32,238 bases of DNA, taken from positions 1 to 32,238 of the forward strand of contig JAUXAL010000048.1 of assembly GCA_030619925.1 (NCBI GenBank), written 5' to 3'. Origin of the DNA: Phycisphaerae bacterium (GTDB lineage Bacteria > Planctomycetota > Phycisphaerae > Sedimentisphaerales > Anaerobacaceae). Below are positions 6,433 to 31,655 of the stretch, piece by piece. A program made the position numbers and the translations under genes. Every line of letters starts with the position of its first letter. Within the stretch, counting starts at the first letter, position 1. The notes under the pieces were generated by a model. That model saw only the letters and a list, made by a program, of their open reading frames with translations. It ran no database searches and was not told the DNA's origin.

Positions 6433-6921
6433 ATGACTGTCATTTCTGTTGCAAGAAAAGAGGCGGTCAGGGGTCATAAGAGTAAACCGCGAAGCGGTTA
6501 CATGACAACGACTGAGCTGGCAAGACTCTGTGGGGTGTCGCGTTTCACTATTATTAATTGGGCCAAACAAGGCAGGATTAAAACGATAAGGACTGTTGGG
6601 AGGCATTACCGGATACCGGCATCGGAAGCGTTAGCTCTGCTTAGAACTTTCAATCAGGAAAAAAAAGCCTCATCATCCGGCTCAGGAGGGCACTGCCGGC
6701 AACAGACGCCGACAACAAACAGCGATGAGAAACGTGGAAATTGTTTAACAAGTAATGAAAAGAATAAGCAGCCAAAGGCTAAAAAGAAGAATATTCTGTA
6801 TACTTTCGTTTACGGTACCGGTCTTGGCGCACACATGCTGAAAGAGAGAGCCGTAAATCTAAGAGGGAGGCTTGCAGGTAAGCCCAAAACTAAGAAACAG
6901 ACGGAAAAATGTACTGCTTAG
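6433..6921 (+). CDS. Excisionase/MerR-type helix-turn-helix protein at the head of the magnetosome cluster
   Basis: The 162-residue protein carries a winged-helix DNA-binding domain of the excisionase/BldC/MerR type at about residues 24-72 (TTTELARLCGVSRFTI, INWAKQGRIKTIRTVGRHYR, IPASEALALL). The last ~90 residues are basic, Ser/Lys-rich and probably disordered, with no effector domain. The start at 6433 is supported by AAAAGGAG about 10 nt upstream; an internal ATG at 6502 directly before the HTH is an alternative. Position suggests a local transcription regulator of the magnetosome genes, or an excisionase relic of an island; both are inference. Known magnetosome clusters do not, to my memory, have a standard regulator of this type. 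Confidence 0.75.
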   Translation: MTVISVARKEAVRGHKSKPRSGYMTTTELARLCGVSRFTIINWAKQGRIKTIRTVGRHYRIPASEALALLRTFNQEKKASSSGSGGHCRQQTPTTNSDEKRGNCLTSNEKNKQPKAKKKNILYTFVYGTGLGAHMLKERAVNLRGRLAGKPKTKKQTEKCTA

Positions 6922-6955
6922 CGTCAAACAGATTCGACCAAGAAGGTGCAGAAGA

Positions 6956-7112
6956 ATGAGATTGGGAATTATTGGTTGGTGGGATTGCTCCGGAGATTGG
7001 GATTTGGGACCTGGAGTATCGCTGGTGTTTTGTTGAAATTGTTGAAGCGGTGGTTGCCCTCGGGCTAATCATAGTGCGAACGCTGGCCACAGCGATTGCA
7101 ATGTTAAGATGA
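6956..7112 (+). pseudogene. Degenerate frameshifted mamI-like copy
   Basis: From ATG 6956 the frame reads MRLGIIG, matching the start of the two mamI-like genes downstream (MKLGIIG). A one-base shift near 6977 moves the homology into the next frame: GGIAPEIGIWDLEYRW, then CFVEIVEAVVALGLIIV, then LATAIAM and TGA at 7110. The span of 157 nt equals 52 codons plus one base, consistent with a single-base insertion. An AAGAAGGTG ribosome-site motif upstream also resembles those of the intact copies. A TTG start in the second frame could still give a short protein. This is therefore a decayed third copy or, less likely, a sequencing error; the additional substitutions favour decay. Confidence 0.7.
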
Positions 7113-7129
7113 GAAAGGAGTAAAGTCAA

Positions 7130-7783
7130 ATGGGAGAGAATTTCGCATTTATTGAGAAAGTAGCTATTCAAATGAGAGAAAAGTTCACATTGCATGGTTT
7201 GGGCCATATTTTGGGCCTGTACTTGGACAAGCTGGAGAGGGCTTTTCAACTCGATTCCAAAGACGTAATCAAGGTCAATCAGGAAAGAGCCAGAGACTGC
7301 ATTAAGCGCGGCAGATATGATGCGGCAATCTCATTATGTCAGAAAACACTCGAACTTGATCCTGAGAATGTCGAAGCCCAATACCAGTTAGGTGTTGCCT
7401 ATATGGGCAACCAGTTAATGGAAGAAGCGATGCGTTCATTCCGAAAAGTATTGAAACTCGCTCCGAACCGTGCAGGGGCCCACTACCGGCTGGGAGTTCT
7501 CTACGACAGAACAGGAGCACTTGACAGTGCGACTACGTCGTATAAGAAAGCAATTAAGCTCGAACCCGAGCAAGCTGATTTTTATTACACGCTGGGTGTG
7601 GCTCAGGATAAAAAAGGCGAACACAAGCAGTCTATTGAATCACTCAACAAGGCAATTCAACTGGCCCCCGATGTGGACAAGTACCATTACCGTCTCGGAC
7701 TGGTTTATGACGGACAGGGCCAGCACGACAAAGCTGTGGGGGCGTTCAAGAAGGCAGTGGAGGCCGAAGAAGCAGGAGCGTAG
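7130..7783 (+). CDS. mamA: MamA-like TPR protein
   Basis: The 217-residue protein has the length of Magnetospirillum MamA. After an N-terminal helical segment (about 1-50), tandem tetratricopeptide repeats fill residues about 53-212: ARDCIKRGRYDAAISLCQKT, then AQYQLGVAYMGNQLMEEAM, AHYRLGVLYDRTGALDSAT, FYYTLGVAQDKKGEHKQSI and YHYRLGLVYDGQGQHDKAV. MamA self-assembles through its TPRs and coats the cytosolic side of the magnetosome as a protein scaffold. GAAAGGAG precedes the ATG. TPR proteins are common, so the name depends on length and on the neighbouring mamQ, mamI and mamE genes. Confidence 0.85.
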   Translation: MGENFAFIEKVAIQMREKFTLHGLGHILGLYLDKLERAFQLDSKDVIKVNQERARDCIKRGRYDAAISLCQKTLELDPENVEAQYQLGVAYMGNQLMEEAMRSFRKVLKLAPNRAGAHYRLGVLYDRTGALDSATTSYKKAIKLEPEQADFYYTLGVAQDKKGEHKQSIESLNKAIQLAPDVDKYHYRLGLVYDGQGQHDKAVGAFKKAVEAEEAGA

Positions 7784-7842
7784 CAGAAGGACGTATTTCG
7801 AAAAAGGAATCCGAAATTATATCGCAAAAGGGAATATCATAG

Positions 7843-8634
7843 ATGAGCCGTATTGGTGCGATAGTAAGGAGACTATACGCAGAGGAATTAAAGCCTGCCA
7901 CCAATGCCAATAATGCAGGTAGAGCCACGGATGAAAGGCCGAGCAGGAAGAAAAGAAGGTTTACAGCTTTCAAAAAGGCTCTGGCTAACCAGCGAAAGGT
8001 AGTCTGGGGCATAAGAATTGCCGTAGTGCTGGTTGTTTTGTTCATTCTCGCTGAGGGCATTTTTCAATTCAATCGACTCACCTTGTGGCGTGTGGTTGTG
8101 ACGGCCCGCCGGGCGGACGTTGAACGCGAATTTCAGAGGAGACAGAATTTGATACCGAACCTGGTATTCGCTGTAAGTAAATACGTTGCCTACGAGCAAG
8201 GGATGTTCAAGTATGTTTCTGACGCCCGGGAAGCGTTGAAGACAATACGAAGTTCTGAAACGCCGAGAACTCAAGCAAGTAGTGTGCTGGAACAAACATT
8301 ATCCAGATTAGTAGCTTTGGCCGAGGAGTATCCGGACCTGAAGGCCACACAGTCGGTTCAAGATTTGATAAGAGAAGCAGCCAATACCGAAGACAGGATT
8401 GCCGACGCGAAAGAAAAGTATAACGAGGCCTCCGAAATTTATAATCAATATCGAACAGTATTTCCGGGAAATGTGTTCGCATTTATTTATCGGTTTAAGG
8501 AGCTTCCATTCATCGGTGTGGAAGAGGCGCTCAAAGTCCCTGTGATCGATCTGGGCATAACCGAGGTAGGGGCAGGTATAGAAGAGGACGTCAAGGTTTC
8601 TACGAAGAATCTAAACAAAACAGAAGGTGGGTAA
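7843..8634 (+). CDS. mamQ: MamQ, LemA-family magnetosome protein
   Basis: The 263-residue protein has a basic cytosolic N-terminus, a membrane segment at about 54-73 and a LemA helical domain from about 82. LemA signatures are present: RRADVEREFQRRQNLIPNLV near 89-108, YPDLKATQSVQDL, and DAKEKYNEASEIYNQYR followed by FPGNVFA. MamQ is needed for magnetosome formation in Magnetospirillum. AAAAGGGA lies about 10 nt before ATG 7843. The start overlaps no neighbour, and the 3' end is followed 4 nt later by mamI. The sequence CAGAAGGTGG at the end of mamQ also serves as the mamI ribosome site. A generic LemA protein is the alternative, made unlikely by context. Confidence 0.9.
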   Translation: MSRIGAIVRRLYAEELKPATNANNAGRATDERPSRKKRRFTAFKKALANQRKVVWGIRIAVVLVVLFILAEGIFQFNRLTLWRVVVTARRADVEREFQRRQNLIPNLVFAVSKYVAYEQGMFKYVSDAREALKTIRSSETPRTQASSVLEQTLSRLVALAEEYPDLKATQSVQDLIREAANTEDRIADAKEKYNEASEIYNQYRTVFPGNVFAFIYRFKELPFIGVEEALKVPVIDLGITEVGAGIEEDVKVSTKNLNKTEGG

Positions 8635-8638
8635 GAAA

Positions 8639-8830
8639 ATGAAATTAGGAATTATTGGTGCAGTTGCTCTGGTACTTGGGGTTTGGGTCCTGAGCTATAG
8701 CTGGTGGTTTGTGGTGGAAATTATTCAAGGTCTGGTGGCGCTCGGGCTGGTCGCAGGCGGAGCGCTGGCTATAGCCGTTGCAATAAGAAGAATATACAGA
8801 GTGAACCAAACGGCAGAGCAAGAAGAATGA
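8639..8830 (+). CDS. mamI: MamI-like small membrane protein, copy 1
   Basis: The 63-residue protein has two hydrophobic segments (about 3-20 and 28-50) flanking the conserved core SWWFVVEIIQGLVALGLV, similar to the WWW-S-VVE...G pattern of MamI. MamI is a small integral protein needed for magnetosome membrane formation in Magnetospirillum. ATG 8639 is preferred over an upstream in-frame GTG at 8627 because AAGGTGG sits 8 nt before it. The short charged tail (RVNQTAEQEE) would be exposed. The paralogue at 8966 shares the upstream CAAAACAGAAGGTGG, showing that the duplicated block included the end of mamQ. Confidence 0.75.
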   Translation: MKLGIIGAVALVLGVWVLSYSWWFVVEIIQGLVALGLVAGGALAIAVAIRRIYRVNQTAEQEE

Positions 8831-8965
8831 TTGCGCAACGTAGACAAACGTGAAATTGGAATGTGTTCTAAAATGAATTGAAAGTCGGGTGTTTTAATGT
8901 TGGGTGCGTTGCCCAATATGGTCAAAACTCCCGTGAACAGTTACCAAAACAGAAGGTGGAAAAGA

Positions 8966-9148
8966 ATGAAATTAGGAATTGGTGGTGCAGTTGCTCTTGC
9001 ACTCGGGATTTGGGCCATGGTGTATTGGTGGTGGTTTGTCGTGGAAATCATTGAAGGGCTGATAGCTCTCGGGCTGGTCGTAGGGGGAGCGCTGGCCATA
9101 GCTATTGCAATAAGAAGAACGCACAGAGCAAAAACCCCGGCGGAGTAA
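8966..9148 (+). CDS. mamI: MamI-like small membrane protein, copy 2
   Basis: The 60-residue paralogue of the 8639 gene has the core YWWWFVVEIIEGLIALGLVV followed by a Gly/Ala/Ile-rich second membrane segment and a basic tail RRTHRAKTPAE. ATG 8966 is preferred over an upstream ATG at 8897 because the ribosome-site motif AGAAGGTGG precedes it at the same distance as in copy 1 and because the homology starts there. The two copies differ mainly by conservative changes, so both are probably functional. The 135 nt between them show no other feature. Confidence 0.75.
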   Translation: MKLGIGGAVALALGIWAMVYWWWFVVEIIEGLIALGLVVGGALAIAIAIRRTHRAKTPAE

Positions 9149-9269
9149 TAAGAATGATTACTCGATGTAGTCGCAAAACTGTCTCCCATGATGGGGACCG
9201 TCAGTTGGTTGCTTTGTCTCGTGCCTGTGGCTCGGCAGGCGTGGCTCGGCAAGTTTGCAGTTTTTTCGG

Positions 9270-9302
9270 GTCCCCAAACGCGAAAAAGAGTGTTTGGGGG
9301 AC
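9270..9302. repeat. Palindromic repeat, copy A (intergenic)
   Basis: GTCCCCAAAC and GTTTGGGGGAC form a hairpin around an ACGCGAAAAAG-type loop. The same unit recurs inside the mamO-mamN gene at 15520 and 16722. The 216 nt between the second mamI and mamE hold only this element and a duplicated GTGGCTCGGCA just upstream. Confidence 0.7.
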
Positions 9303-9364
9303 TCTCAATTTGCTCGAAGGCCGGTAATTGACCCGTTAATTGGATATAAAAAGGGGGTATAGAG

Positions 9365-11746
9365 ATGGAGGAAAAAGTAGAAAACAATAGGAACCTGCTT
9401 GCAGCGTTAATCGCGTTAATTGTTCTGGTTGTTGTTGTAGTTTTCTATTGGGACCGACAGAAACAGCTTGGACTTCGGCGAACCCAGGCCGAGATTCAAG
9501 GTGAGCTTCTGGAAGAGTGGGGACCCCAGGCGCAGCCACAAGTTCAGGCGGCATTTGGAGCCCAGACTGTCGCTTTTTCCAAACAGATTTCATACAAGAA
9601 TATTATTGCCAGGATCGCTCCTTCAGTGGTGAGTGTCAACGTGGAGTCCAGTTTCATTAGTCAAGAAGGTGGACTGGCTCAAAACGTTTGGGGAGGAAGA
9701 ATGGGCGGTTGGGGAATGGGACCCGGAGGTTATCAGAACTGTCCTATTCTGCCTCAGGCGCAACAACTGGCGGCTCAAAACCAACCGGCAGATCAATCGC
9801 AGGAAGCAACAGGGATGGGACAATATGTCTGGTGGGGCAGAATGGGTGGCTTGGGGGGCAGCAGTCGTTGGTTTTGCCCTAATTGTTACACAAATGTACC
9901 TTGTCGAAGAGGTATAGCTGCATCAGGGTCAAACTGTCCAAGCTGCGGAATACGAATGATGCATGGATGCACACCATGGGCATGCCCTCTCGGGGCTCAG
10001 AGTCAACCACCGGCGGCTCAAAACCAACCGGCAGACCAATCGCAGGAAGCATCAGGATTTGGACAATATGTCTGGGGGGGGCGAATGGGCGGCTGGGCGC
10101 TGGGTCCCGGAGGTAATCTGGTCTGCCCGAGCTGCGGTACGAAAGTTCCTCACCAAATAGGTGTACCCGCTTACACGGTCAGCTGCCCGGGTTGCGGAAC
10201 ACAAATGATGCGTGAAGGGGCACCCAGATACTATCCTGTCCCGGGTCAAGTGCAGCAACTGGCGGCTCAGCAACAAGACCAGCAATTCCAGGCACTGGGC
10301 CGGGGTGGTTCGGGAGTAATCGTCAACAGTCGCGGCTATGTCCTGACCAATCACCACGTAGTCCACGGAGCGAGAAATATCACCGTTACACTGTCTTCGG
10401 GTCAAATCACCAAGACTTATCCTGCACAACTGATTGATGAGGCACCTGATGTGGATTTTGCCATAGTGAAAATACTTGCGAACGGAAACGAGCAATTTAC
10501 TCCCGCCCTGATCGGCAACTCCAGTGAAGTGTCCGTCGGAGACGAAGTATTGGCTATCGGCAGTCCTTTCGGACTACAACAAACCGTAACGTCCGGCATC
10601 GTGAGCAATACGCAGCGCACCCTGACTGTAGGCAACCAGAAGTTCACCAATTTTATCCAAACTGACGCACCAACCAATCCCGGCTCCAGCGGGGGCCCGC
10701 TGGTCAATGTAAATGGTGAGGTTATCGGTATCAATACGGCTATCTATTCCCCCACTCAAGGTTTTAGTGGAATCGGTTTCGCCAGTCCGATTAACCCGGC
10801 AAAGGCAGCGTTTCCTGAGTTCATAGAGACTGCGCCGAGTGTAGTTCGCGGCTTGAGGGAAAACTTGCCGAATTGGGCTCGCGGTCAATTAAGACCGGCA
10901 GGGACCCTGCGGAGCGGGAACCCGGCACAAGTCCAGCGAGGGTTAGGGCTTTATCCATGGTGTCCACCGGGTGGACAGCTACGACAAGCAGCAAATACAC
11001 AAAGCCAACCCTGGTTGGGAATACGTGTACGTGGTGTGGATCAGGAAATCAAACGCTTTGTTGGTTTGCCTATGTCTCGTGGCGTCCTTGTCATGGAAGT
11101 ATTTGATAATTCCCCCTGCCGGACAGCCGGCTTGCAAAAAGGAGATGTCATCGTTCGGGTCGACGGCCGAAGCGTCAAAGATGATACAATGCTTGAGGCT
11201 CTGTTGGTCAAGAAACGGGTCGGGGATACAATGAAGCTGACGATATACCGTGACGGTAAAAAGATGAGTCTTAGGCCCAGGTTAGCCGTAAGACCCGTCG
11301 GCCTCCAAGGCCCGCAGGCAGCTTTTTGGGGAGAATGGCCGAAGCCCCAGGGAGCGGTGCTTAAAGGCCAGGCTGTGGCATTGGCGCAGCAGCCCTTTAA
11401 TCCCCAGAACGTCAGGCCGCCGGGATTGACCGGCGTGCTGCAAGGAGGTGAGGTTGAAACCGGTGCAATAGAAGCGTTGGGAATGGAACTTGGGGAGCTG
11501 TCGCCTGAATTAGCCCTGGCTTACGGTGTTCCCAAAGGAGTAACGGGTTTGCTTGTCGCTGAAAGCGCTGCTCCAGCCACGGCCGCAGGACTTTTGGCGA
11601 ATGATGTGATTGAAGCAGTCAATGGCCAACGAGTCGAAACCATTGCTGATTTCATAAAGGTGATGAACAAAGCTGACTTAAAGAGAGGAATATCTCTGGA
11701 TGTTTATCGCCAGGGACAACGGTTTAATCTGACGATGAGAGGTTAA
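9365..11746 (+). CDS. mamE: MamE-like HtrA protease with inserted CPxC modules
   Basis: The 793-residue protein has an N-terminal membrane anchor (about 11-28), a trypsin-like HtrA domain and two PDZ domains (about 549-640 and 688-793). The catalytic triad is intact: His331 (TNHHVV), Asp364 (VDFAIV) and Ser442 (NPGSSGG). Between the first strand (IAPSVVSVNV, 84-93) and the strand GSGVIV (315-320) sits an insert of about 215 residues containing three copies of QYVWGGRMGGW and four CPxC motifs (171, 191, 254, 274), but no CXXCH. Magnetospirillum MamE is a protease that processes biomineralisation proteins and carries two CXXCH haem motifs between protease and PDZ domains; here those are absent. 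GAGATGGAGG-type sequence around ATG 9365 leaves the start moderately supported. Confidence 0.9.
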   Translation: MEEKVENNRNLLAALIALIVLVVVVVFYWDRQKQLGLRRTQAEIQGELLEEWGPQAQPQVQAAFGAQTVAFSKQISYKNIIARIAPSVVSVNVESSFISQEGGLAQNVWGGRMGGWGMGPGGYQNCPILPQAQQLAAQNQPADQSQEATGMGQYVWWGRMGGLGGSSRWFCPNCYTNVPCRRGIAASGSNCPSCGIRMMHGCTPWACPLGAQSQPPAAQNQPADQSQEASGFGQYVWGGRMGGWALGPGGNLVCPSCGTKVPHQIGVPAYTVSCPGCGTQMMREGAPRYYPVPGQVQQLAAQQQDQQFQALGRGGSGVIVNSRGYVLTNHHVVHGARNITVTLSSGQITKTYPAQLIDEAPDVDFAIVKILANGNEQFTPALIGNSSEVSVGDEVLAIGSPFGLQQTVTSGIVSNTQRTLTVGNQKFTNFIQTDAPTNPGSSGGPLVNVNGEVIGINTAIYSPTQGFSGIGFASPINPAKAAFPEFIETAPSVVRGLRENLPNWARGQLRPAGTLRSGNPAQVQRGLGLYPWCPPGGQLRQAANTQSQPWLGIRVRGVDQEIKRFVGLPMSRGVLVMEVFDNSPCRTAGLQKGDVIVRVDGRSVKDDTMLEALLVKKRVGDTMKLTIYRDGKKMSLRPRLAVRPVGLQGPQAAFWGEWPKPQGAVLKGQAVALAQQPFNPQNVRPPGLTGVLQGGEVETGAIEALGMELGELSPELALAYGVPKGVTGLLVAESAAPATAAGLLANDVIEAVNGQRVETIADFIKVMNKADLKRGISLDVYRQGQRFNLTMRG
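9683..10250 (+). repeat. Internal repeats of mamE encoding CPxC modules
   Basis: A 243-bp (81-codon) unit is recognisable from the near-identical starts at 9769 and 10012 (GGCGGCTCAAAACCAACCGG). It encodes QNQPADQSQEA, VWGGRMGGW and paired CPxC motifs. An earlier partial unit lacks the cysteines. The near-identity at DNA level suggests a fairly recent duplication. Confidence 0.75.
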
Positions 11747-11763
11747 GACAATAGGTTAGGAAC

Positions 11764-13824
11764 GTGACGAACAAGACAGACGAAACATGTGCTCGCAAAA
11801 TGCTGTCGCCGTGGGTCGCCGGAATAGTAATTCTGGTTTGTGTCACAATCGCCCTGACTTGTTATTACGCCGACGACATACGACAAGCCCAAAGGACCAG
11901 GGGACCAATGCAGATCAGAGTTTTGCCAAGTTTTGGGCAACCGGTTCGAGCGGCAACACAAGCTGCAAACCCCGCGGCCAGACCGGCTGTTTTTGTTCCT
12001 CCGTGGCATGGGAAACAGAACCCCGACTCGATAACCGGTGCTACCCCGAGAGCGATGTCCTTCAATCAGGCTATTGGAATTGTTTCTCCGTCAGTGGTAG
12101 GTATCAATACCTCCGGGGCCCAGGAACAGGGCGCTTCGGGCATCATTGTGCATCGTCAGGGATATATCCTTACTAACTATCACGTCGTCAAAGGAGCAAA
12201 GAATATCGTCGTTACGCTTACCTATGACCAATTGATTAAGTCCTACGCGGCGGAAATAATCGACATCAGACCGGAACTGGATTTGGCCATTATAAAGGTA
12301 AACTCAACCGGCAAAGAGGTTTTAGCGCCTGCACCACTGGGGGATTCGGACAGGATATATATTGGACAGCAGGTTGTGGCAATAGGCAATCCTTTTGGCC
12401 TGGCGCAGAGCGCCTCGTCAGGAATCATCAGCAATCCGCAGCGGACCCTTACGGCGGGCAATAAAGTCTTTGAGGGGCTGATTCAAACCGATGCTTCAAT
12501 TAATCCCGGTTCCAGCGGCGGTGCATTGGTTAATGCAAAGGCCGAGGTGATCGGTATCAATACCGCGATCTATTCGCCAACTACGGCTTTCAGCGGGATC
12601 GGATTTGCCGTTCCGATCAATCACGCAAAGCAAGTTTTCCGGGATTTCATAGAAATAGTCCAATCGCCTTTATCCAAGGCACATGCACAAGCCGCTGGAG
12701 GGAATGTGAATCAAATCAAGCTTCCCACCATAGGAGCTAATCTGCAAATGATGGCTGCCCTGCGTGGCGTTCGAAAGTGCTGGCTGGGGATTGCCGCCTA
12801 TCCGGTAGACAACCTCGTATCGAGAGAATTCGATCTGCCTGTCCACCACGGCGTGTTGGTGAATCGTGTTTTTGATAATTCTCCTGCGGCAAAAGTGGGA
12901 CTGCTCAGAGGCGATATGATTTACCGGGTCAACGACAGAAGGATAAGAGATGCAAAAATGTTCTGGTCGTACCTGGCGGGCGCCAAAGCAGGAGATGAGG
13001 TAAAGATTACTTTGTTCAGGAGGGGCAAAAAGAGGACTTTTATTCTTAAACTGGAGCCCGAGCCGACCAACGTTCGTTCCCTTCTTTCCAAGGCGCCTCA
13101 AGGGACGCTGGCCTTTCAGACCGTTGCGGTCGCGACGGCACCGACCGGAACATTGCCCTCGCCCCGCGAGCAGAACGCCGCAGGAAAGAAGTTTATCGAA
13201 GGGCACTGGCTGGGGCTGGAGGTAATCCCGCTGATTGCGGAACTGGCCACCGAATATCAGGTTCCGAAAGGGCAAGCCGGAGTGCTGGTTGACGAGGTTA
13301 CGCTCGAATCCGCCGAGTCCGGCATCCTGGCCGGGGATATGGTCCAGTCCATCAACGGTTTTCCTACGCCTGATCTGGAGGCATTTTTTCGGGCTACGCA
13401 GCGCGTGCAGGAAAAAGAACGGGCCCAGGTGGGAATCAGCCGTCGGGGTAGCAAGATGACATTTGTTATGACGGCCCGGAACACGAGCACGCTGGGCTTC
13501 GCTCAAATGGAGGCGGCGCAGCCGATCCAGCCGGGGGCCCTACCCCCGCATCGCTCTCGAGGACGTGCATGCACCTACTGCCACATTTTCATGCAGACCG
13601 GAGGCCAACTGCCCACAGACGCGGGCGACATACTTCCTAATCCGCCGCCCATAACAAAAAACGCAAAGGCCTCTCATCGTTACCGTGGCCGGTGCGCTAC
13701 CTGTCATACTATACTGCCCACAGATGCGGGCGGCATACTTCCTACTCCGCCGGTCATAACAAAAATTGCAAAGGCCCCTCATAGTTACCGTGGTCAGTGC
13801 GCTAACTGTCATACTATCAGGTAA
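11764..13824 (+). CDS. Second MamE-like protease with three C-terminal magnetochrome motifs
   Basis: The 686-residue protein has a membrane anchor (about 17-34), a trypsin-like domain with intact His140, Asp173 and Ser251, PDZ domains at about 338-430 and 480-572, and then three magnetochrome motifs: PHRSRG-RACTYCH (603-607), HRYRGRCATCH (644-648) and PHSYRGQCANCH (679-683). Magnetochromes are c-type haem motifs unique to magnetosome proteins (MamE, MamP, MamT, MamX) and are thought to act in iron redox control. Here they lie after the PDZ domains, whereas Magnetospirillum MamE has them before. The start is GTG 11764 behind AGGTTAGGAAC, 18 nt after mamE. The protein ends three residues after the last haem motif, and a PDZ-like segment follows out of frame. 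Confidence 0.87.
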   Translation: MTNKTDETCARKMLSPWVAGIVILVCVTIALTCYYADDIRQAQRTRGPMQIRVLPSFGQPVRAATQAANPAARPAVFVPPWHGKQNPDSITGATPRAMSFNQAIGIVSPSVVGINTSGAQEQGASGIIVHRQGYILTNYHVVKGAKNIVVTLTYDQLIKSYAAEIIDIRPELDLAIIKVNSTGKEVLAPAPLGDSDRIYIGQQVVAIGNPFGLAQSASSGIISNPQRTLTAGNKVFEGLIQTDASINPGSSGGALVNAKAEVIGINTAIYSPTTAFSGIGFAVPINHAKQVFRDFIEIVQSPLSKAHAQAAGGNVNQIKLPTIGANLQMMAALRGVRKCWLGIAAYPVDNLVSREFDLPVHHGVLVNRVFDNSPAAKVGLLRGDMIYRVNDRRIRDAKMFWSYLAGAKAGDEVKITLFRRGKKRTFILKLEPEPTNVRSLLSKAPQGTLAFQTVAVATAPTGTLPSPREQNAAGKKFIEGHWLGLEVIPLIAELATEYQVPKGQAGVLVDEVTLESAESGILAGDMVQSINGFPTPDLEAFFRATQRVQEKERAQVGISRRGSKMTFVMTARNTSTLGFAQMEAAQPIQPGALPPHRSRGRACTYCHIFMQTGGQLPTDAGDILPNPPPITKNAKASHRYRGRCATCHTILPTDAGGILPTPPVITKIAKAPHSYRGQCANCHTIR
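13609..13818 (+). repeat. 105-bp tandem repeat encoding magnetochrome motifs
   Basis: Two adjacent 105-bp units start at 13609 and 13714 (CTGCCCACAGA) and each encode 35 residues from LPTDAG to CHTI. They duplicate one haem-binding module within the gene at 11764. A more diverged first motif precedes them. Confidence 0.85.
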
Positions 13825-14940: not shown

Positions 14941-14942
14941 AT

Positions 14943-17924: not shown

Positions 17925-17937
17925 AAGGAGATATGAT

Positions 17938-18165: not shown

Positions 18166-18183
18166 GTGGGAAGGATGATAATT

Positions 18184-19323: not shown

Positions 19324-19382
19324 AGTATATCGTAGACTTGCACCTGTTTTTGAAAATTATGGTTTTAAACAGAAGCAGGACG

Positions 19383-23275: not shown

Positions 23276-23395
23276 GAACTAACGTTTTTTAAGAATTTAT
23301 CAAAGGGTGTGCAAACAGTGTTTTGGCTACGTATCCCATTTTTTGCGGCAAATTGGCTAAAACGCAAAATTGTGGGAAGCGTCACTAAGGAGAAA

Positions 23396-24250: not shown

Positions 24251-24271
24251 ACTTTCTATTTATGGGCGAAG

Positions 24272-25693: not shown

Positions 25694-26623
25694 ATGATTG
25701 CTCAGCGCTGCATTAATTGTGGCAAGAAGGTAGAGTGGATAGTCTTAGGTATAAACTTCGGCCTGTTCATACTGAAGGGTTCGTTCGCCCTTCTTAGTCA
25801 CAGCAAGTCACTTCTTACTGATTCATTTCAATCTCTGGCGAACTTCATCATAACCATTGTTGTCTTGACAAGCCTGAGAATGGCATCGAAGGGGGCCGAT
25901 GAAAAATTTCCTTATGGTTATGGCAAGGTGGAACTTCTTGCATCAGGGATCGTGAATATGCTGCTTATGATTGCGGCGATAGTTTTTATTTTTGTTTCTT
26001 TCACCGAGATAATAATGGTCGGGCCTGAGAAGCCGCCGAAGCTGGTAGCGATTCTTGCCGCCGGCATCTCAATTATTGCTAATTATATAGCTTTCGGCTA
26101 CGGGCGTTGTGCAGGTGAAAAACTGGGAAGTACGGCCATTTTAGCCAATGCGGAGGTAAGTCGCGCCGATGTGGCTACTTCGGTGGCAGTAATAGTCGCC
26201 GTTGTCGGGAGCAATCTGGGCTTTTCCAGGCTTGACCATATAGCAGCAATTGTAATCTGTGTTCTGATTATCAAAGTAACGCTGGGCGGCATAAAAAAAG
26301 CGATCAAAGGACTCATGGATGTTTCTCTACGTTCGGAAGAGCAGCATATACGAAACTTAGTAGAAGATATTGAAGGCGTCCAGTGCGTCGGAGACGTAAA
26401 GGCCAGGTTCGCCGGTCGCAGCCTTTGGGTCGATGTGAACATTTTTGTTCCGGCTGACTGGGTTTTAAGCAGGGGTCTGGAAACCGTCCGGAAAATCAAG
26501 AATGTTCTGCGCAGAAAAATGAAGGGTATTTCAGATGTATCTGTACAGTTACTTCCCTTTGTCGGTGCGGATGACCACGGGCACAGAACACGTTATAGCT
26601 CTGAGAATGCAAAGAGGGAGTAA
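25694..26623 (+). CDS. Third mam-type CDF with lost metal site
   Basis: The 309-residue protein has the mam-type CDF layout: N-terminal CINC, FPYGYGKVELLASG, LGSTAILANAEVSRAD, KGLMDVSLRSEEQ and a C-terminal domain. However, the ligand positions read Gln46, Asn50 (DSFQSLAN), Val155 and Asp159, so only one of the four canonical residues remains. It starts 3 nt after mamM and is probably translated with it. It may be a structural partner of MamB or MamM, or have a different substrate. The C-terminal tail is longer and His-rich (DDHGHRTR). Confidence 0.85.
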   Translation: MIAQRCINCGKKVEWIVLGINFGLFILKGSFALLSHSKSLLTDSFQSLANFIITIVVLTSLRMASKGADEKFPYGYGKVELLASGIVNMLLMIAAIVFIFVSFTEIIMVGPEKPPKLVAILAAGISIIANYIAFGYGRCAGEKLGSTAILANAEVSRADVATSVAVIVAVVGSNLGFSRLDHIAAIVICVLIIKVTLGGIKKAIKGLMDVSLRSEEQHIRNLVEDIEGVQCVGDVKARFAGRSLWVDVNIFVPADWVLSRGLETVRKIKNVLRRKMKGISDVSVQLLPFVGADDHGHRTRYSSENAKRE

Positions 26624-26631: not shown

Positions 26632-27282
26632 ATGTACCCTATGCATAAGAAAGCTGGAGCGAGGGCAGAAGAAACAGTATCAGAGAAGGATTGTTTTGCC
26701 AATAAGGTAAAGAACTGGCTTTGGATTATGGGCATTATCGCTGTTGGAGCTATTGTCTGTACTATTATAACATTTCCTGGTGAGAATGCTGCTTATTCTT
26801 CAACGGGCCAGTCATTTTCACAAGGCGGTCAATTCGAGAATGTCGCTCTTACCCGCTGTCCCTATTGCCCCGGGCTCCTTGACGCCCAGAGAAGATGTGA
26901 CGTTCGTGGATGCCCAATTTATAGTCCAAACTGGGGAAAACCGTCGAACCTGCAGAACATTCCTCTAAAACGGGTGCTAATCAAAGAACTGGCTCTGGAA
27001 GTGAGTGCATTAGAGGACAATGGAAGCGTGACCATTTGCTCGCTATATGGCAGTGGTGGGGGAAAAAAAGCCGGGTTGTGGGTGGCCGATAGGATTCGCC
27101 GGTTCAATGGCCGCAGGGTCAAGAACGTTAAGCAATTTCAGTCTATTGTTGCTAAGGCAAAACCGGCTTCGGACGTAAAAATACAAGTCATCAGAAACAA
27201 AAAGAAAATAGAATTGGTTGTGAGGATTGGCGAAGGGCAAAGGGAAGGGGCAACCCTGCCAAAGACGATGAATCCCGCGTAA
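26632..27282 (+). CDS. Membrane-anchored PDZ protein with a cysteine knuckle, MamP-like layout
   Basis: The 216-residue protein has a membrane segment at about 29-47, a cysteine cluster (CPYC 76-79 and CDVRGC 89-94), and a PDZ-like domain at about 115-200 (AGLWVADRIRRFNGRRVKNV, KQFQSIVAKA). In MamP a membrane anchor is followed by PDZ and CXXCH haem motifs; here no CXXCH occurs and the cysteines come before the PDZ domain. They could form a zinc or iron site. The gene begins 8 nt after the third CDF, with GTAAGGAC upstream. It is a candidate functional substitute for MamP. Confidence 0.75.
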   Translation: MYPMHKKAGARAEETVSEKDCFANKVKNWLWIMGIIAVGAIVCTIITFPGENAAYSSTGQSFSQGGQFENVALTRCPYCPGLLDAQRRCDVRGCPIYSPNWGKPSNLQNIPLKRVLIKELALEVSALEDNGSVTICSLYGSGGGKKAGLWVADRIRRFNGRRVKNVKQFQSIVAKAKPASDVKIQVIRNKKKIELVVRIGEGQREGATLPKTMNPA

Positions 27283-27334: not shown

Positions 27335-28123
27335 ATGGAACAAAAGACAAGAGAACAAGCCGAACAGCTGTATATGCGGGGATTACATGTTTTCGCCCGA
27401 TCTGCAGACACCGAAAGCCTGGAACTTGTAGCTGAGCTGTGGCAAGAGGCATGGGAATCGTATCGCAAGATCGGCGATAAGAGTAAAGCCAGAGAATTAG
27501 AAAAATCGCTGGCGGCCTTGTATAAAAAGAAATACCTGAAGGCGCAGGAAACAAGAGAACGACAAGGTGGTATTATCAGGAAATTTAAAGACTGGTTTAT
27601 GTTTTTCAAAATCGGGTGTTTTGGCTTTGGCGGTCCCATGGCAGTATTTTCCCTGTTACAGGATGAATTAGTACGCGAAAAACAGATTCTAACCGACAAA
27701 GATTTTCTTGAGGGTGCCGTGCTGGGCGATGTTTTACCAGGGCCGGTAACGATGGATATAGTAACTTATACAGGATATAAACTGAAGAAATGGTCCGGCG
27801 CACTAATCTCAACGCTCGTTTTTATCTTACCATCATTTGTTCTAATGATTATTCTTGCCATACTTTACGACAGATACAGCATAACACCTAAGGTTGAGGA
27901 GGTATTTAGATGTTTAGGTGCTGCAGTTACAGGATTGATACTGTCTGTAGGATTGAAACTTAGTAAAACAGAAATGAAAGATTATCGTGAACTGTGTATT
28001 TTGATGTGGGCGTTTGCCTCAGCATTAATCTTTAAGCTGGACATCGTGGTAATAGTAGGATTTGCCGGATTGGTAGGCATAGTTGTTTATCACGATGATA
28101 CGGAAGAACAACAGGTAAAATGA
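27335..28123 (+). CDS. Chromate transporter-family protein, N-terminal half, with helical extension
   Basis: The 262-residue protein combines an ~85-residue charged helical extension, perhaps one TPR-like hairpin, with a CHR-family domain (KIGCFGFGGP, LEGAVLGDVLPGPV, VFILPSF). Such domains normally act as pairs in chromate or anion transport. The next gene overlaps by 4 nt and supplies the second domain, so this is a split short-chain ChrA pair. The extension is unusual for CHR proteins. The ribosome site is weak. Confidence 0.82.
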   Translation: MEQKTREQAEQLYMRGLHVFARSADTESLELVAELWQEAWESYRKIGDKSKARELEKSLAALYKKKYLKAQETRERQGGIIRKFKDWFMFFKIGCFGFGGPMAVFSLLQDELVREKQILTDKDFLEGAVLGDVLPGPVTMDIVTYTGYKLKKWSGALISTLVFILPSFVLMIILAILYDRYSITPKVEEVFRCLGAAVTGLILSVGLKLSKTEMKDYRELCILMWAFASALIFKLDIVVIVGFAGLVGIVVYHDDTEEQQVK

Positions 28124-28638
28124 TAAATACATTAGTTAAGTTGTCCTGGGTATTTCTAAAGATTGGCACCTTCTCTTTTGGCGGCGGTATCGTCATAATT
28201 CCGCTGGTGGAAAATGAGGTGGTTGTCAAGTATGGCTGGCTTACAAAAACGGAATTTGTTGACGCAGTAACGTTAGGTCAGATTACACCAGGGCCGGTGA
28301 TAGTTTCTGCGACGTTTATAGGATATAAAGTCTGCGGTATTTTGGGTGCGATAGTTTCCACCTTAAGTGTGATTTTGCCGTCGTTTGTAATGATCTGTCT
28401 CGCTACAGCGGCAATAAAAAAGTTCCGTGAGAACAAAATATTAGCAAATTTTCTTCGTGGAGCCCGTGTTGCGGTTATCGGCATGGTTTTTGATGCGGGT
28501 GTAAGTATAGGAAGAAGTTCCTTAGTTGATATCAAGACTATTTTAATTGTGGGGATGAGCATTATTTGCCTGTTCAAGTACAAAGTAAATCCGATCTGGA
28601 TTATACTTGGTGCAGGAATCGTCGGATTAGTCACTTAG
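28120..28638 (+). CDS. Chromate transporter-family protein, second half
   Basis: The 172-residue protein is a single CHR domain with the repeated family motifs KIGTFSFGGG, VTLGQITPGPV and VILPSF. It overlaps the preceding CHR gene by ATGA (28120-28123), which means coupled translation and probably a heterodimer. The substrate is unknown. It is the last + strand gene of the cluster with good support. Confidence 0.87.
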   Translation: MINTLVKLSWVFLKIGTFSFGGGIVIIPLVENEVVVKYGWLTKTEFVDAVTLGQITPGPVIVSATFIGYKVCGILGAIVSTLSVILPSFVMICLATAAIKKFRENKILANFLRGARVAVIGMVFDAGVSIGRSSLVDIKTILIVGMSIICLFKYKVNPIWIILGAGIVGLVT

Positions 28639-28711: not shown

Positions 28712-28727
28712 TACGATGAGGAGCTGA

Positions 28728-28964
28728 ATGGGATTTGGAGCGTTTATTTCGTTAGGGCTTGCAAAAGTCGCTGGGGTTGTAACGCCGGTAAAGGTCACTA
28801 AACAGAAGAGGCACATTCGGGACGAGGAGGGGGAAAAAAGGAAAAAGCCACCAAGCAAGACAAGAAATAGTAACATGGGGAACGGCCTACTTTTTCGAAT
28901 AGGGCGCTCGGCCCCTAATCTTGGGGGCGCCTTTTCTACGACTTGCCTGGTTTTCTGTGTCTGA
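28728..28964 (+). CDS. Doubtful small basic protein
   Basis: The 78-residue frame has GAGGAG before its ATG and a coherent beginning (MGFGAFISLGLAKVAG), then a strongly basic segment (KRHIRDEEGEKRKKPPSK). The end runs through a terminator-like hairpin and overlaps the dtxR gene on the other strand. It is either a small unknown protein with a degenerate end or spurious. Confidence 0.3.
   Translation: MGFGAFISLGLAKVAGVVTPVKVTKQKRHIRDEEGEKRKKPPSKTRNSNMGNGLLFRIGRSAPNLGGAFSTTCLVFCV
28903..28935 (+). terminator. Terminator between convergent transcripts
   Basis: GGCGC (28903-28907) pairs with GCGCC (28927-28931), and CCCC (28912-28915) with GGGG (28923-28926), with a 4-nt bulge, a 7-nt loop and a following TTTT. 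It lies between the + strand cluster and the - strand feo genes. Confidence 0.6.
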
Positions 28965-29682
28965 ATCTGCCCCACCGGTTATCACTTCTGCTTGGTCTGG
29001 CAGGCGTCTCTTTCGGAGCCGATTGAAAATGCTGAGGTTCTCTCCATACACATATATTAGAAGCTATCTGTTCATCCATCGCAATGTTGCTGCTTTCGCA
29101 CTCAATTACGTAGGAGGGGTATCTTTGATGTAAGGTAACAACTGCTCCCGGTCTTATACAAAGACTGTCTATTTTGTGAAGCTGCTGGTCGCTTTTGCAA
29201 TTAATATAGGCAACCCGCGCGGACTGACCCACCTCTAATTCGACTAACGGTATAACAGAGCTCTGCGCTGTCCTGGAAGAATGCCTGCAGCATTCACCCT
29301 CCGGTATGGGCATTCCGTGGGGACATGCCCTGGGATGGCCAAGTAAAATACAGATACTGTCCACCAGTTCGGCCGTTACCGTATGCTCAAACTCACAGGC
29401 GCCTGATTCATAATCTCCGCCAAGAACATCGTAAAGCAACCTTTCGGCAAGCCTGTGCGCACGGATTAATTGCCGCGCATAATCCTCACCCTTTTTTGTA
29501 AGGGTGATCTTATTCTCCTCTTCTGTTAATTCCACCAAACCTTCAGATACGAGTTCATCAATTATATCAGGATCATAACTTGCGTTCATGGTGCTCTTTA
29601 CCACATCTATTGAGTCCTTTCCCTCCTCTTTCATGTACCACAACTGCTCGAGATGTTCGTCTCTTTCTCTCTTTTTGTTCAT
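28936..29682 (-). CDS. DtxR-type metal regulator with C-terminal FeoA-like domain
   Basis: The 248-residue protein has a winged-helix domain (about 8-70), a dimerisation and metal-binding domain of the DtxR/MntR family with CEFEH (96-100) and ACPHGMPIP (119-127), and an SH3/FeoA-like domain at about 143-215 (VIPLVELEVGQSARVAYI). A basic tail follows. Such proteins repress iron or manganese uptake genes when loaded with metal. The start at 29682 (MNKKRE) is chosen because GGGAGATAGG lies upstream; a start at 29718 would overlap feoB by 31 nt. It lies 5 nt after feoB and so belongs to its transcript. It probably controls feoB and possibly the magnetosome genes (inference). Confidence 0.85.
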   Translation of the reverse strand: MNKKRERDEHLEQLWYMKEEGKDSIDVVKSTMNASYDPDIIDELVSEGLVELTEEENKITLTKKGEDYARQLIRAHRLAERLLYDVLGGDYESGACEFEHTVTAELVDSICILLGHPRACPHGMPIPEGECCRHSSRTAQSSVIPLVELEVGQSARVAYINCKSDQQLHKIDSLCIRPGAVVTLHQRYPSYVIECESSNIAMDEQIASNICVWREPQHFQSAPKETPARPSRSDNRWGRFRHRKPGKS

Positions 29683-29687
29683 AGGAC

Positions 29688-31655
29688 CTATCTCCCAATA
29701 GTGAATATCAATATCCAATTTAAGATGCCCGCCAGAATAAAAGAAGACATATTTATAGCCAAAGCCATCGCTATGCCGGTCTTTACTCCCATCTGCTTAC
29801 ACATTGCCACTACATTTGCAAAACAGGGAACAAACATCGTGGTTATAACCACAGTTACTATACACTGCACATAATTCAGCGCCCCCGCATCCACCATTCT
29901 TAGCGTCAAGCCTGCAGCTGCTTCATGTCTGGCAGCCGCAAGCAGGAGTACATCCACGATATCTCGCGGCAAACCGAGCCATGATACCACAATCGGGCTC
30001 ATTAACGTTTTTATCAAATCGAGGACTCCTGTCTTATCAAGTAAAAATAATGCTGCTGCTGCAATGATAAAAATAGGGATGGCTTCCTTCAAAAACCAAT
30101 ATAACCGGTGATAGGTTTTGACGGCTATGGCCTTTGGACTCGGAACACGAATGGCAGGCAGTTCCTGGAGAAAAACGCTTTTCTCTTGCTCCTTTATAAT
30201 CTTATTAAGGGCCAACCCGGCGGATAATTCAATAAGGGCCAGCGCTCCGTAGCCAATCATAAAGGCCTTAATCCCAATCCTTCCAAATATGGCCATGTCA
30301 ATGCCCATTTGGGCAGAGCAGGGCAAGGCAAAGGCGATAAGATAGACAGCTACAAACTTCTCTTTCTTGGACCGCAACCCCCTTGTGGCAAGTGTTGCCA
30401 TGGTCTTACATCCAAAGCCCAAGACCAGCGGCATAACGGCTTTTCCGGTCAAACCTATCTTCTCAAAAACCCTTTTAACTAAAACACAGAGGTTAGGTAT
30501 ATAACCTATGTCTTCGAGAAAACCGAACATGAGAAAGAATACAGAAAGTATGGGAAGAACGGTAACTATAGCGTTAAATAGACCAAGGGTCAAAATACCG
30601 TAATCTCCCACAAGAAATTCATTCCAGAAGCCCGATGGCAAAAGTTTCGTTATATACTCTACAGTAGGGTCAAGTAAGGCAGCACTGAGTATTTCATCCA
30701 AAAAGCCAGCAACATGTGTCACAAGTAAATACGTCGTTATCACGAAGAAAGCTAATATCGCAAGCCCGAATATGGGATGGCGACTCAACCGGCCAAAGGC
30801 CTTGGAGAACTCTCCCGGAGTTATCTTCTGCTTTCTGGTTGTATCTTCAACAATATCATCCACCCACCGACTGCGCTTGTTATTTAGAACACGGCCGAAG
30901 TTCCCTCTGAATTGCCGCCTAATCTTACTTACCTGGTTCTTTAACTGGGCAACTTTTTCCTGGCCGTATTCGGCGCTTAAGTAATCCGCCAAGAACGGGT
31001 CGGCGAGCAACAGCAGAACCGCTACCTTTCGTTTAAAACTTACATCCTCCGGCAGCTCAGACTCAATAGCCGATATCCCATCATCTACGATTTCGCCATA
31101 CCGCAGAGACTGCTTGCCTCTGCGTGCCTTGCTTATGGCGCCTTTGAGCTCTTTTGTGCCCAAGCCATCTACGGCTATCGACTCGACGACAGGGACACCT
31201 AAAATGCGTGACAATCCGCCCGAATCGATCCATACCCCCCTTCTTGCGGTCTCATCTATGGCATTAAGCGATATTACCATGGGTATCCCCAATTCGAGCA
31301 GATCCGCCGTGAGGGTTAGTGATTGCTTCAACTGGTTGGCATCGATGCACTGGATGATCATGTCCGGCTTTTCTTTGAATATCATATCGCGGACTATGAG
31401 CTCCTCTTCGGAGTGAATATAAAGACAATGAAGGCCGGGGGTATCAATGACCTCGTAAGGTTCGCCATCAATCTCACATCTCGTTCTTTTCATCTCTACA
31501 GTCGTGAATGGATAGTTGGCAACTAAGGTATACTCGCCCGTCAGATTGTTGAATACCTGGCTCTTGCCGGTATTCGGCAGCCCAACGATAGCGATTTTCT
31601 TAACCGGGCGGAAACTGCTCGAATTATCTTTTTTCGCCTTCTTTTTTTCGCTCAT
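29688..31655 (-). CDS. feoB: FeoB ferrous iron transporter
   Basis: The 655-residue protein has an N-terminal G domain with G1 GLPNTGKS (25-32), G3 DTPG (71-74) and a NAID G4 motif, a helical spacer, and a C-terminal membrane domain with about eight segments, including the two gate motifs (GFGCKTMATLATRGL and VPCFANVVAMCKQMG). The first gate motif differs from the usual GFGCNVPA, as Lys-Thr replaces Asn-Val. FeoB imports ferrous iron using the G domain. FeoB proteins are commonly part of magnetosome clusters (e.g. FeoB1 in Magnetospirillum). A promoter and an inverted repeat lie upstream. It is slightly shorter than E. coli FeoB (773 residues). Confidence 0.92.
   Translation of the reverse strand: MSEKKKAKKDNSSSFRPVKKIAIVGLPNTGKSQVFNNLTGEYTLVANYPFTTVEMKRTRCEIDGEPYEVIDTPGLHCLYIHSEEELIVRDMIFKEKPDMIIQCIDANQLKQSLTLTADLLELGIPMVISLNAIDETARRGVWIDSGGLSRILGVPVVESIAVDGLGTKELKGAISKARRGKQSLRYGEIVDDGISAIESELPEDVSFKRKVAVLLLLADPFLADYLSAEYGQEKVAQLKNQVSKIRRQFRGNFGRVLNNKRSRWVDDIVEDTTRKQKITPGEFSKAFGRLSRHPIFGLAILAFFVITTYLLVTHVAGFLDEILSAALLDPTVEYITKLLPSGFWNEFLVGDYGILTLGLFNAIVTVLPILSVFFLMFGFLEDIGYIPNLCVLVKRVFEKIGLTGKAVMPLVLGFGCKTMATLATRGLRSKKEKFVAVYLIAFALPCSAQMGIDMAIFGRIGIKAFMIGYGALALIELSAGLALNKIIKEQEKSVFLQELPAIRVPSPKAIAVKTYHRLYWFLKEAIPIFIIAAAALFLLDKTGVLDLIKTLMSPIVVSWLGLPRDIVDVLLLAAARHEAAAGLTLRMVDAGALNYVQCIVTVVITTMFVPCFANVVAMCKQMGVKTGIAMALAINMSSFILAGILNWILIFTIGR

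Follow-up and report, generated by a model that had tools for sequence, protein, structure and literature searches.

The 32,238-nucleotide contig JAUXAL010000048.1 of a Phycisphaerae bacterium (assembly GCA_030619925.1; the window) contains, at 6433-28638, what sequence comparison supports as a magnetosome gene cluster in a Planctomycetota genome. The two proteins encoded upstream of mamK in this cluster (18886-20480) share a C-terminal helical tail, [KR]xPhiPhixx[IV]FxxN[LIV]x[LI][RQ], that we did not find in the open-access literature at the level of titles and the beginnings of abstracts. Based on sequence comparisons, we propose that the tail docks adaptor proteins on MamK-family filaments and that it predates magnetosomes. 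We hold with moderate confidence the reading as a whole, that is, a magnetosome cluster probably making magnetite, a tail that docks adaptors on MamK, and an adaptor-filament pair that is older than or independent of magnetosomes. The features of the window are as follows (G numbers denote genomes).

123-1847: flanking protein with PD40 and LamG domain matches
6433-6921, +: HTH_17/MerR-type regulator, first gene of the cluster (Pfam HTH_17); homologues upstream of mam genes in G755, G782 and G733
7130-7783, +: MamA (TPR)
7843-8634, +: MamQ (LemA); MamQ was the sole NCBIfam match
8897-9148, +: MamI (NCBIfam MamI, E 5.9e-10)
9365-11746, +: MamE-type HtrA protease; PDZ domains and repeats that contain Cys, no magnetochrome match
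11764-13824, +: MamE-MamP fusion; trypsin, PDZ domains, then three magnetochromes
13522-13599, 13645-13719 and 13750-13818, +: magnetochromes of the MamE-MamP fusion
14032-14940, +: MamB (model match and CDF tree)
14898-17621, +: MamO/N fusion; degenerate trypsin-PDZ and MamN/CitMHS transporter
17640-17924, +: MamL-like LapA-domain protein, a weak assignment
17905-18165, +: small protein with two TM segments by eye; 72% identity in G755
18166-18420, +: small TM protein, similar by eye to the anchor at the N-terminus of the 9365 MamE; G755 (70%) and G782 (40%) have homologues
18521-18865, +: 114-aa helical protein; 54-57% identity in G733 and G748, 40% in Omnitrophota G989, no homologue in the examined stretches of G755 and G782
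18886-19323, +: candidate MamK adaptor 1 (o145; by alignment); N-terminal Gly-rich segment, helix, C-terminal tail
19246-19293, +: tail motif RAVLVKVFRQNVALQK in adaptor 1
19338-20480, +: candidate MamK adaptor 2; PAS, helical repeats, tail
20391-20438, +: tail motif KAVLEKIFKENIRLQK in adaptor 2
20570-21742, +: MamK (model match and tree)
21746-21961, +: 71-aa protein directly after mamK, with one TM and a Lys-rich helix by eye; by eye, like ORFs at the equivalent position in G755, G782 and G715
22355-23275, +: generic CDF transporter (domain matches, CDF tree)
23309-24250, +: P-loop protein (weak AAA matches); 79% identity in G755
24272-24790, +: PAP2 phosphatase (domain match)
24824-25690, +: MamM (model match and metal residues)
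25694-26623, +: third MamB/MamM-like CDF (CDF4; MamB 209 bits, MamM 193 bits; CDF tree)
26632-27282, +: PDZ protein (domain match) with Cys pairs (sequence)
27335-28123, +: chromate-transporter half with N-terminal extension
28120-28638, +: chromate-transporter half
28936-29718, -: DtxR-type iron regulator with FeoA domain
29688-31655, -: FeoB

The core set mamABIKMQ, as in Lin 2020, is complete on one strand by NCBIfam matches, and only MamK scored above its curated cut-off. The scores in bits (cut-offs in parentheses) were MamA 158 (200), MamQ 91 (250), MamI 39 (80), the two MamE 253 and 252 (800), the MamP part 218 (300), MamB 287 (350), the MamN part 325 (500), MamK 419 (400), and MamM 273 (350). 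The magnetosome model was the top match for A, Q, I, B, N, K, and M; for the two MamE proteins it ranked second, behind a general Do-protease model, and the MamP model ranked fourth for 11764-13824. Besides MamB, the CDF set comprises MamM, CDF4, and the generic transporter.

An initial annotation had placed mam genes together on one strand next to feoB and a DtxR/FeoA regulator, and this was borne out: MamA, MamQ, MamI, two MamE-type proteases, MamB, MamO/N, MamK, and MamM lie in the cluster, with FeoB (above the NCBIfam cut-off) and the DtxR-FeoA protein adjoining on the minus strand. The four MamM metal residues that it had named (Y47, D51, H155, and D159) were all present, as were its CXXCH magnetochromes (PF18509, three stretches in 11764-13824, two above the cut-off). 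Its MamL did not hold up, as 17640-17924 matched the LapA domain and no MamL model, and the flanking protein described as dockerin/LamG kept its LamG domain and had no dockerin match at E 0.01. The candidate lineage-specific genes that it saw among the co-directional ORFs are real; the tail, the two cluster types, and the domain fusions had escaped it.

The proteases of the cluster differ from canonical MamE and MamO in domain make-up. In contrast to canonical MamE (trypsin, magnetochrome, PDZ), the protein at 9365-11746 had no magnetochrome match and that at 11764-13824 has its magnetochromes at the C-terminus, behind the PDZ domains. MamO is a degenerate protease with a TauE domain; the fusion in the window lacks TauE and has a CitMHS/MamN domain instead. 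The catalytic triad of the fusion is lost. In the alignment with DegP, His is replaced by Thr and Asp by Arg, and the Ser position is Ala, as it also is in the aligned DegP entry; we take Ser to be the wild-type residue at that position of DegP. Residues 473-652 of the MamE-MamP fusion matched the solved MamP structure 4jj0. The magnetochrome domain is described as specific to magnetotactic bacteria (MTB; Arnoux 2014), and PF18509 had no match in 14 control genomes. Magnetochromes were present in the window's genome, G755, G782, and Omnitrophota G796, and there was no match in G733 or G748.

The genome belongs to the Planctomycetota, as initially supposed. It falls in one family with named Planctomycetota and Phycisphaerae MAGs and, judged by this shared family, its kinship is not with another phylum. 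Orthologues of most cluster genes were found in two members of the family, CSMAG_2751 ("Phycisphaerae bacterium") and MohnsGC08_bin89 ("Planctomycetota bacterium"). G755 and G782 have orthologues of most cluster genes in conserved order, and G715 has orthologues of a fragment. We considered and rejected the idea that G715 holds a decayed cluster: in the 60 kb examined, gaps of 100 N recur every 3.6-3.9 kb and the pieces are in order of falling length. The sequence looks like concatenated contigs, the cluster fragment being simply a small contig. That the window itself is a binning contaminant from Omnitrophota or other MTB is hardly credible to us. Its MamK shares 67-73% identity with that of Omnitrophota, but separate MAGs of the family, listed under different isolate names, have orthologues of higher identity, and the window's own MAG has satellite Mad23-like genes on two contigs besides this one.

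There are two magnetosome cluster types in the phylum. Planctomycetota clusters are already published, and the window adds a further variant. The initial statement that few had been described fits Uzun 2020 (PMC7449369), which adds three MAGs, assigned to Phycisphaerae, and one SAG, and Lin 2020 (PMC7602337), which describes the first Fe3O4-type Planctomycetota clusters and groups them with Omnitrophota. MAG_11118_pl_115 (G733), a published MTB/magnetosome genome from the family of the window's genome, and the likewise published MAG_18080_pl_157 (G748) have the other cluster type, close to the window only in the MamK module. The Uzun 2020 clusters (G733 and G748), from the same family or order, share with the window, in the same gene order, MamK (73-77%), the 114-aa protein (55%), o145 (56-67%), and the PAS protein (41-47%). 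The remaining common genes are mostly 23-51% identical; unlike the window, these clusters have two MamB-like CDFs, no MamM, and electron-transfer genes (Fix-like, by eye) close by. The window is of the second type, with protease-cytochrome and pseudoprotease-transporter fusions.

The mineral is probably magnetite. The window's MamM grouped with Omnitrophota MamM (SH-aLRT 93 in the CDF tree, a grouping that carries a long-branch warning), as the Fe3O4-type clusters of Lin 2020 cluster with Omnitrophota, a likeness by description. Uzun 2020 sets Planctomycetes in a putative greigite group, and a greigite product is an improbable alternative for the window: G733 and G748, two of the Uzun 2020 MAGs, are of the other type and without magnetochrome matches, whereas the window type resembles Omnitrophota clusters that have magnetochromes.

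MamK of the window branches with magnetosome homologues. MamK matched the actin-like ATPase of PDB 5ljw (E 1.2e-79). In a quick tree with no alphaproteobacterial or desulfobacterial rows, it fell in an 11-row clade with Omnitrophota (SH-aLRT 100) that excludes 31 other planctomycete MamK-family sequences; it did not group with non-magnetosome homologues, the outcome that the initial annotation had named as counting against it. Four of the five Omnitrophota genomes in the clade hold MamB-like pairs. Identity to the window's MamK was 67-83% within this clade versus 38-55% in 40 loci fetched later. A scan of IMG/VR gave eight pattern matches with no relative among them, and a plasmid search gave 11 records, all below 60% identity, the annotated ones being MreB/rod-shape proteins. 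MamK alone was rejected as a cluster marker: of 392 genomes of the phylum, 91, counting that of the window, had a MamK-family match above the cut-off. In the 30 best other genomes there was no further mam gene within at most 1.5 kb on each side of the MamK-family loci, with one weak P-loop match.

The tail is strongly concentrated in genes adjacent to mamK. A tail protein is encoded upstream of mamK in 11 of 11 genes of the magnetosome clade, from two phyla; in G910 and G989 the automatic choice of ORFs missed it, and it was found by reading all three frames. The tail also occurs upstream of 49 of 71 more distant Planctomycetota MamK-family actin genes (25/31 in the discovery batch, after which the pattern was fixed, and 24/40 in loci fetched later), counts that are not independent because some genomes contribute several loci. 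Position -7, free in the pattern, was L, M or F in all 49. The strict pattern was absent from the other 22 loci, of which a looser pattern fits eight (six near misses by eye), none counted in the 49. In the controls, the tail appeared in 0 of 334 reverse-strand segments and, with both strands scanned, in 2 of 532 downstream ones. Among chosen ORFs of at least 100 aa from 39 loci, some duplicating one another, 18 of 555 had the tail, and each of the 18 precedes a mamK by no more than about 1.8 kb. In 20 further loci of 14-20 kb the figure was 8 of 260, seven of them just upstream of the actin gene, although a frame scan finds an upstream tail gene in all 20, so that the chosen ORFs undercount.

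We rejected the reading that the tail is specific to magnetosomes, as it also stands ahead of planctomycete MamK-family actins around which no mam genes were seen. This neighbourhood check covered 31 of the 71 loci (30 of them only to 1.5 kb) and 20 of the other 40 (to about 10 kb on each side), and two of these 20 had one weak mam-type match each (TPR, 26% identity; CDF, 32%). Because the tail precedes such distant actins, adaptor and filament were likely paired before magnetosomes arose, or independently of them.

We also considered that the tail is a regulatory nascent peptide, acting by translational arrest or coupling to control mamK expression rather than by docking. Arrest peptides with conserved C-termini are encoded upstream of the genes that they regulate (PMC12992588, PMC10987492), and the tail lies close to the C-terminal end of the protein encoded immediately before mamK. 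However, the distance from the motif Asn to the protein end varies from 5 to 32 residues across the 49 loci, two consecutive genes in the window carry the tail and only the second adjoins mamK, the tail protein of locus L188 is about 5.4 kb from the actin gene, and the pattern resembles an amphipathic helix. We regard this explanation as very unlikely and favor docking.

By analogy with studied Mam proteins, MamI, the MamL-like protein, MamQ, and MamB would shape the vesicle. MamB, MamM, and CDF4 would fill it with Fe(II), for which FeoB would be the source and DtxR-FeoA the regulator, the two HtrA proteases and the degenerate HtrA-MamN fusion would control maturation and ion balance, and the MamE-MamP fusion would set Fe(II)/Fe(III) via its magnetochromes. 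Chain organization would be unlike that of Magnetospirillum, with two tail proteins, one short with a Gly-rich N-terminal segment and one with PAS and helical repeats, encoded ahead of mamK. Their shared amphipathic helix of about 16 residues would dock on MamK filaments and tie magnetosomes to them, and adaptor 2 may tie a PAS signal to the filament too.

A less novel explanation is that the cluster is an ordinary planctomycete one and that the tail is the conserved C-terminus of Mad25/Mad26 of the RS-1 type, known organizers, with only the sequence detail new. Russell 2025 (PMC12748827) reports that Mad20, Mad23, Mad25, and Mad26 have coiled coils and act in chain organization, that in two-hybrid assays Mad25 interacts with every protein tried, MamK among them, and that Mad23 has HEAT repeats, as do satellite proteins on contigs C109 and C7 of the window's genome (the window itself has no HEAT matches). 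The word "motif" is absent from the main text of that paper, no Mad model was among the NCBIfam matches, and the tail precedes actins outside recognized mam surroundings. We consider this explanation unlikely, yet a serious competitor to that of a docking tail.

Homologues of adaptor 1 co-occur with Mad23-like proteins. The o145 family occurs in 6 of 90 family genomes and HEAT/coiled-coil Mad23-like proteins in 7 of 90; the six are all among the seven (P 1e-8), and six of the seven show mam genes. G791 has both o145 and a Mad23-like protein and no MamA-to-MamM gene in the 35 kb examined. The tail was seen on the PAS protein only in the window, G733, and G748, and there was no tail match in two type B o145 paralogues, the PAS paralogue on contig C7, or the PAS-like proteins of G782 C173 and G755 C74. 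An AlphaFold2 model of a joined o145-MamK chain from MohnsGC08_bin89 (12 rows) had pLDDT 44 and pTM 0.27, unusable for an interface. For the 114-aa protein (three rows), pLDDT was 66 and Foldseek found no match in the PDB at E 0.001.

We tentatively suggest, leaning slightly to the doubtful side, that a MamK-family actin with an upstream docking-helix partner is a general planctomycete and omnitrophote cytoskeletal module for positioning non-magnetic cargo, and that magnetosome chain organization arose by adaptor duplication and the gain of new front ends (a membrane anchor, a PAS sensor). The origin of magnetosome chains is debated. The tail bears on the way in which magnetotactic bacteria of deep-branching lineages attach magnetosomes to MamK, and it points to a further role for MamK-family filaments in Planctomycetota. 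As a mark of genes next to these actins, both in magnetosome clusters and where mam genes are not in sight, this short peptide offers a direct binding test and a handle for adaptors in other genomes.

Chain organization in Magnetospirillum uses MamJ, and mamJ is directly upstream of mamK. The window is like this pair in gene position, with an adaptor gene directly upstream of mamK. Mad20, Mad23, Mad25, and Mad26 of Desulfovibrio magneticus RS-1 are alike by description, as coiled-coil and HEAT proteins working with MamK, and differ in that no such tail is described for them in the passages of Russell 2025 consulted. The Omnitrophota clusters (nS315bin20, that is G796, and G981, G910, and G989) share with the window a MamP-type magnetochrome protein (43-47% identity), MamM (34-35%, three genomes), the MamN fusion (29-30%, three genomes), FeoB (49-50%, two genomes), and a tail protein ahead of mamK. 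Unlike in the window, their MamP-type protein is separate from MamE, and in G981, G910, and G989 mamK and its adaptor are on a different contig from the mam genes.

The plus-strand genes of the window leave little doubt, as judged from sequence, that they constitute a magnetosome gene cluster. The window is an entire contig (C137) of a 4.02-Mb MAG that is 92.8% complete. As the initial annotation had it, the mam genes are co-directional, in a plus-strand gene run at 6433-28638, and feoB and a DtxR-FeoA gene adjoin the end of this run on the minus strand. NCBIfam models matched MamA, MamQ, MamI, MamE (twice), MamP, MamB, MamN, MamK, and MamM in the window. Despite MamK being the only one of these matches to exceed its curated cut-off, we are confident in the assignment because of the magnetochrome domains, found in none of 14 control genomes, and because all six genes (mamABIKMQ) given as the magnetosome core in the excerpt of Lin 2020 (PMC7602337) are present together. 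The MamM metal residues named in the initial annotation were also found; its MamL (Pfam, NCBIfam) and its dockerin in the flanking protein were confirmed by no model.

Two proteins of the cluster appear to be fusions. The protein encoded at 11764-13824 has a trypsin-PDZ part followed by three magnetochromes at its C-terminus, and because residues 473-652 match the solved MamP structure 4jj0, we regard it as a MamE-MamP fusion. In the excerpt of Arnoux 2014 (PMC3971196), magnetochrome triplicates are rare and the magnetochromes of MamE stand between trypsin and PDZ, in contrast to those of the window's protein, which are C-terminal, after PDZ. At 14898-17621, a protease domain and PDZ are joined to a MamN transporter. 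The catalytic positions are replaced (His by Thr, Asp by Arg, and Ala at the Ser position, where the aligned DegP entry also has Ala), and the protein would be a MamO-like pseudoprotease with another membrane half. A small protein (18166-18420) resembles by eye the N-terminal membrane anchor of MamE 9365, with DRQ and EEWG in both, and looks like a free-standing copy of that anchor.

Two proteins encoded directly upstream of mamK (20570-21742) end in a shared helical motif, [KR]xPhiPhixx[IV]FxxN[LIV]x[LI][RQ], here called the tail:

18886-19323, plus strand, tail protein 1 (o145, candidate MamK adaptor 1), C-terminal tail RAVLVKVFRQNVALQK
19338-20480, plus strand, tail protein 2 (PAS protein, candidate adaptor 2), C-terminal tail KAVLEKIFKENIRLQK

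By pattern search, the tail was also found in Omnitrophota, where one contig (L079) encodes it in a 164-aa protein directly 5' of mamK. Looser versions were then seen directly 5' of the actin gene when 30 planctomycete MamK-family loci and that of G772, a genome of the window's family, were inspected. The upstream regions of 40 further loci were fetched after these first 31, and one pattern was applied to all 71. It was present in 49 upstream regions (25 of 31 in the first batch and 24 of the 40 later loci; rows counted by hand, several loci sharing genomes). In all 49, the residue at position -7, outside the pattern, was L, M or F, which fits the need of an amphipathic helix. The tail was found in none of 334 reverse-strand control segments and in 2 of 532 downstream segments. 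Among chosen ORFs of at least 100 aa at 39 loci, some of them duplicates of each other, 18 of 555 had the tail, and each of the 18 lay upstream of a mamK at a distance of up to about 1.8 kb. Within the magnetosome clade (window type and Omnitrophota), each of the 11 MamK genes had a tail-protein gene upstream.

MamK-family actins exceeded the curated cut-off in 91 of 392 planctomycete genomes. In the 30 best of the other genomes (L002-L031), no other mam gene was found within up to 1.5 kb on each side of the locus, and there were no mam neighbours on the 17-kb contig of G772. MamK of the 40 later loci was 38-55% identical to the window's; the magnetosome clade was 67-83%. At 18 of the 20 later loci whose neighbours were read at 14-20 kb, MamK was the sole match to the window's proteins; the remaining two had one further match each (a TPR protein at 26%, and a CDF at 32% to MamB), taken as generic. 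The tail occurred in 8 of 260 chosen ORFs at these 20 loci, seven of them directly 5' of the actin gene. The eighth, a 339-aa ORF with the full tail (1049-2068 of L188, on contig C88 of G351), is about 5.4 kb away from the actin gene, hinting that tail proteins may also work remotely. Contig C39 of Omnitrophota genome G927 carries mamK and a tail protein, and no MamB-like CDF was found in that genome; this could mean that the pair exists in the absence of magnetosomes here as well, or that the MAG is incomplete.

In a quick MamK tree that left out alphaproteobacterial and desulfobacterial rows, the window type and Omnitrophota formed one clade and 31 other planctomycete rows the other, both with SH-aLRT 100. 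Since the tail is common to both clades, this suggests that the actin-adaptor pair predates their split, or moved with it by transfer.

Related clusters fell into two types. Among 90 genomes of the window's family, MamK matches at E 1e-80 were found in five: the window's own, G755 (Phycisphaerae bacterium CSMAG_2751), G782 (Planctomycetota bacterium MohnsGC08_bin89), G733 (MAG_11118_pl_115), and G772, the last at just 51% identity. We call type A the window's kind of cluster, also in G755, G782, and, as a fragment, G715. G755 has most of the cluster genes, arranged as in the window and for the most part 57-87% identical (35% for the HTH gene); the 114-aa protein was not found, the PAS-type protein sits on a separate contig, and feoB/DtxR occur as pieces only. 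Its contigs C32 and C74 hold a second mamK copy and cut feoB/DtxR pieces, suggesting that the chain module was duplicated or rearranged. In G782 the cluster is split over two contigs, mostly at 51-83% identity (o145, 47%; small TM protein, 40%), and the stretches read had no generic CDF, P-loop, PAP2 or 114-aa gene. The generic CDF, P-loop, and PAP2 genes (window 22355-24790) are in the window's genome and G755 but missing from the mamK-mamM interval of G782 and G715, and may represent a lineage-specific insertion or loss.

Other small genes were noted in type A. Directly 3' of mamK, a 71-aa protein (21746-21961) with, by eye, one TM segment and a Lys-rich helix had no family match; similar ORFs occur in G755, G782, and G715, and it is possibly a membrane tether. 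A 59-aa zinc-ribbon ORF (22222-22401) has a counterpart at the same place in G755. Two half-size chromate-type transporters at the cluster end (27335-28638) are kept in G755 and G782; G715 has one, cut.

Type B comprises G733, G748 (MAG_18080_pl_157), and partly G780. Outside the MamK module, genes shared with type A are mostly 23-51% identical; within it the types are close (MamK 73-77%, 114-aa protein 55%, o145 56-67%, PAS protein 41-47%). The PAS protein bears the tail in the window, G733, and G748 only; homologues elsewhere are without it. Magnetochromes were found in the window's genome, G755, and G782 and not in G733, G748, or the fragmentary G715 (G780 was outside the search). On contigs C30 of G733 (8570-12280) and C10 of G748, Fix-like electron-transfer flavoprotein genes (by eye) adjoin type B magnetosome or Mad23-like genes, possibly as redox supply.

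Type A is probably of the magnetite type, as its likeness to Omnitrophota clusters and a published report argue. A 48-row CDF tree placed the window's MamM with that of Omnitrophota (SH-aLRT 93, with a long-branch warning) and the paired type B CDFs in a single MamB-like group. The PDZ-magnetochrome protein (43-47%) and the MamN fusion (29-30%) are common to Omnitrophota clusters and type A, and the excerpt of Lin 2020 (PMC7602337) groups Fe3O4-type Planctomycetota with Omnitrophota. G733 and G748 are magnetosome genomes from Uzun 2020 (PMC7449369), the available part of which places three planctomycete MAGs in order SG8-4 of the Phycisphaerae and predicts greigite for planctomycete genomes, these two type B genomes included; G748 belongs to the same order as the window's genome.

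HEAT/coiled-coil proteins were found in seven of the 90 family genomes (threshold E 1e-30, with the 16 best-ranking candidates of each genome scored), and these seven include all 6 genomes with an o145-family member. Mam genes were seen in six of the seven, and the 35 kb read in G791 had no MamA-to-MamM gene. Both C109 and C7, two other contigs of the window's genome, carry a HEAT locus, and the magnetosome genes of this genome therefore probably occupy three or more contigs.

We propose that the tail would dock on the MamK filament and the N-terminal part of the adaptor contact the magnetosome. Structure prediction of the joined adaptor-MamK pair gave no usable fold. In Desulfovibrio magneticus RS-1, according to the excerpt of the published work (PMC12748827), chains are organised by coiled-coil Mad proteins, among them Mad25, which interacted in two-hybrid assays with every partner tested, including MamK.
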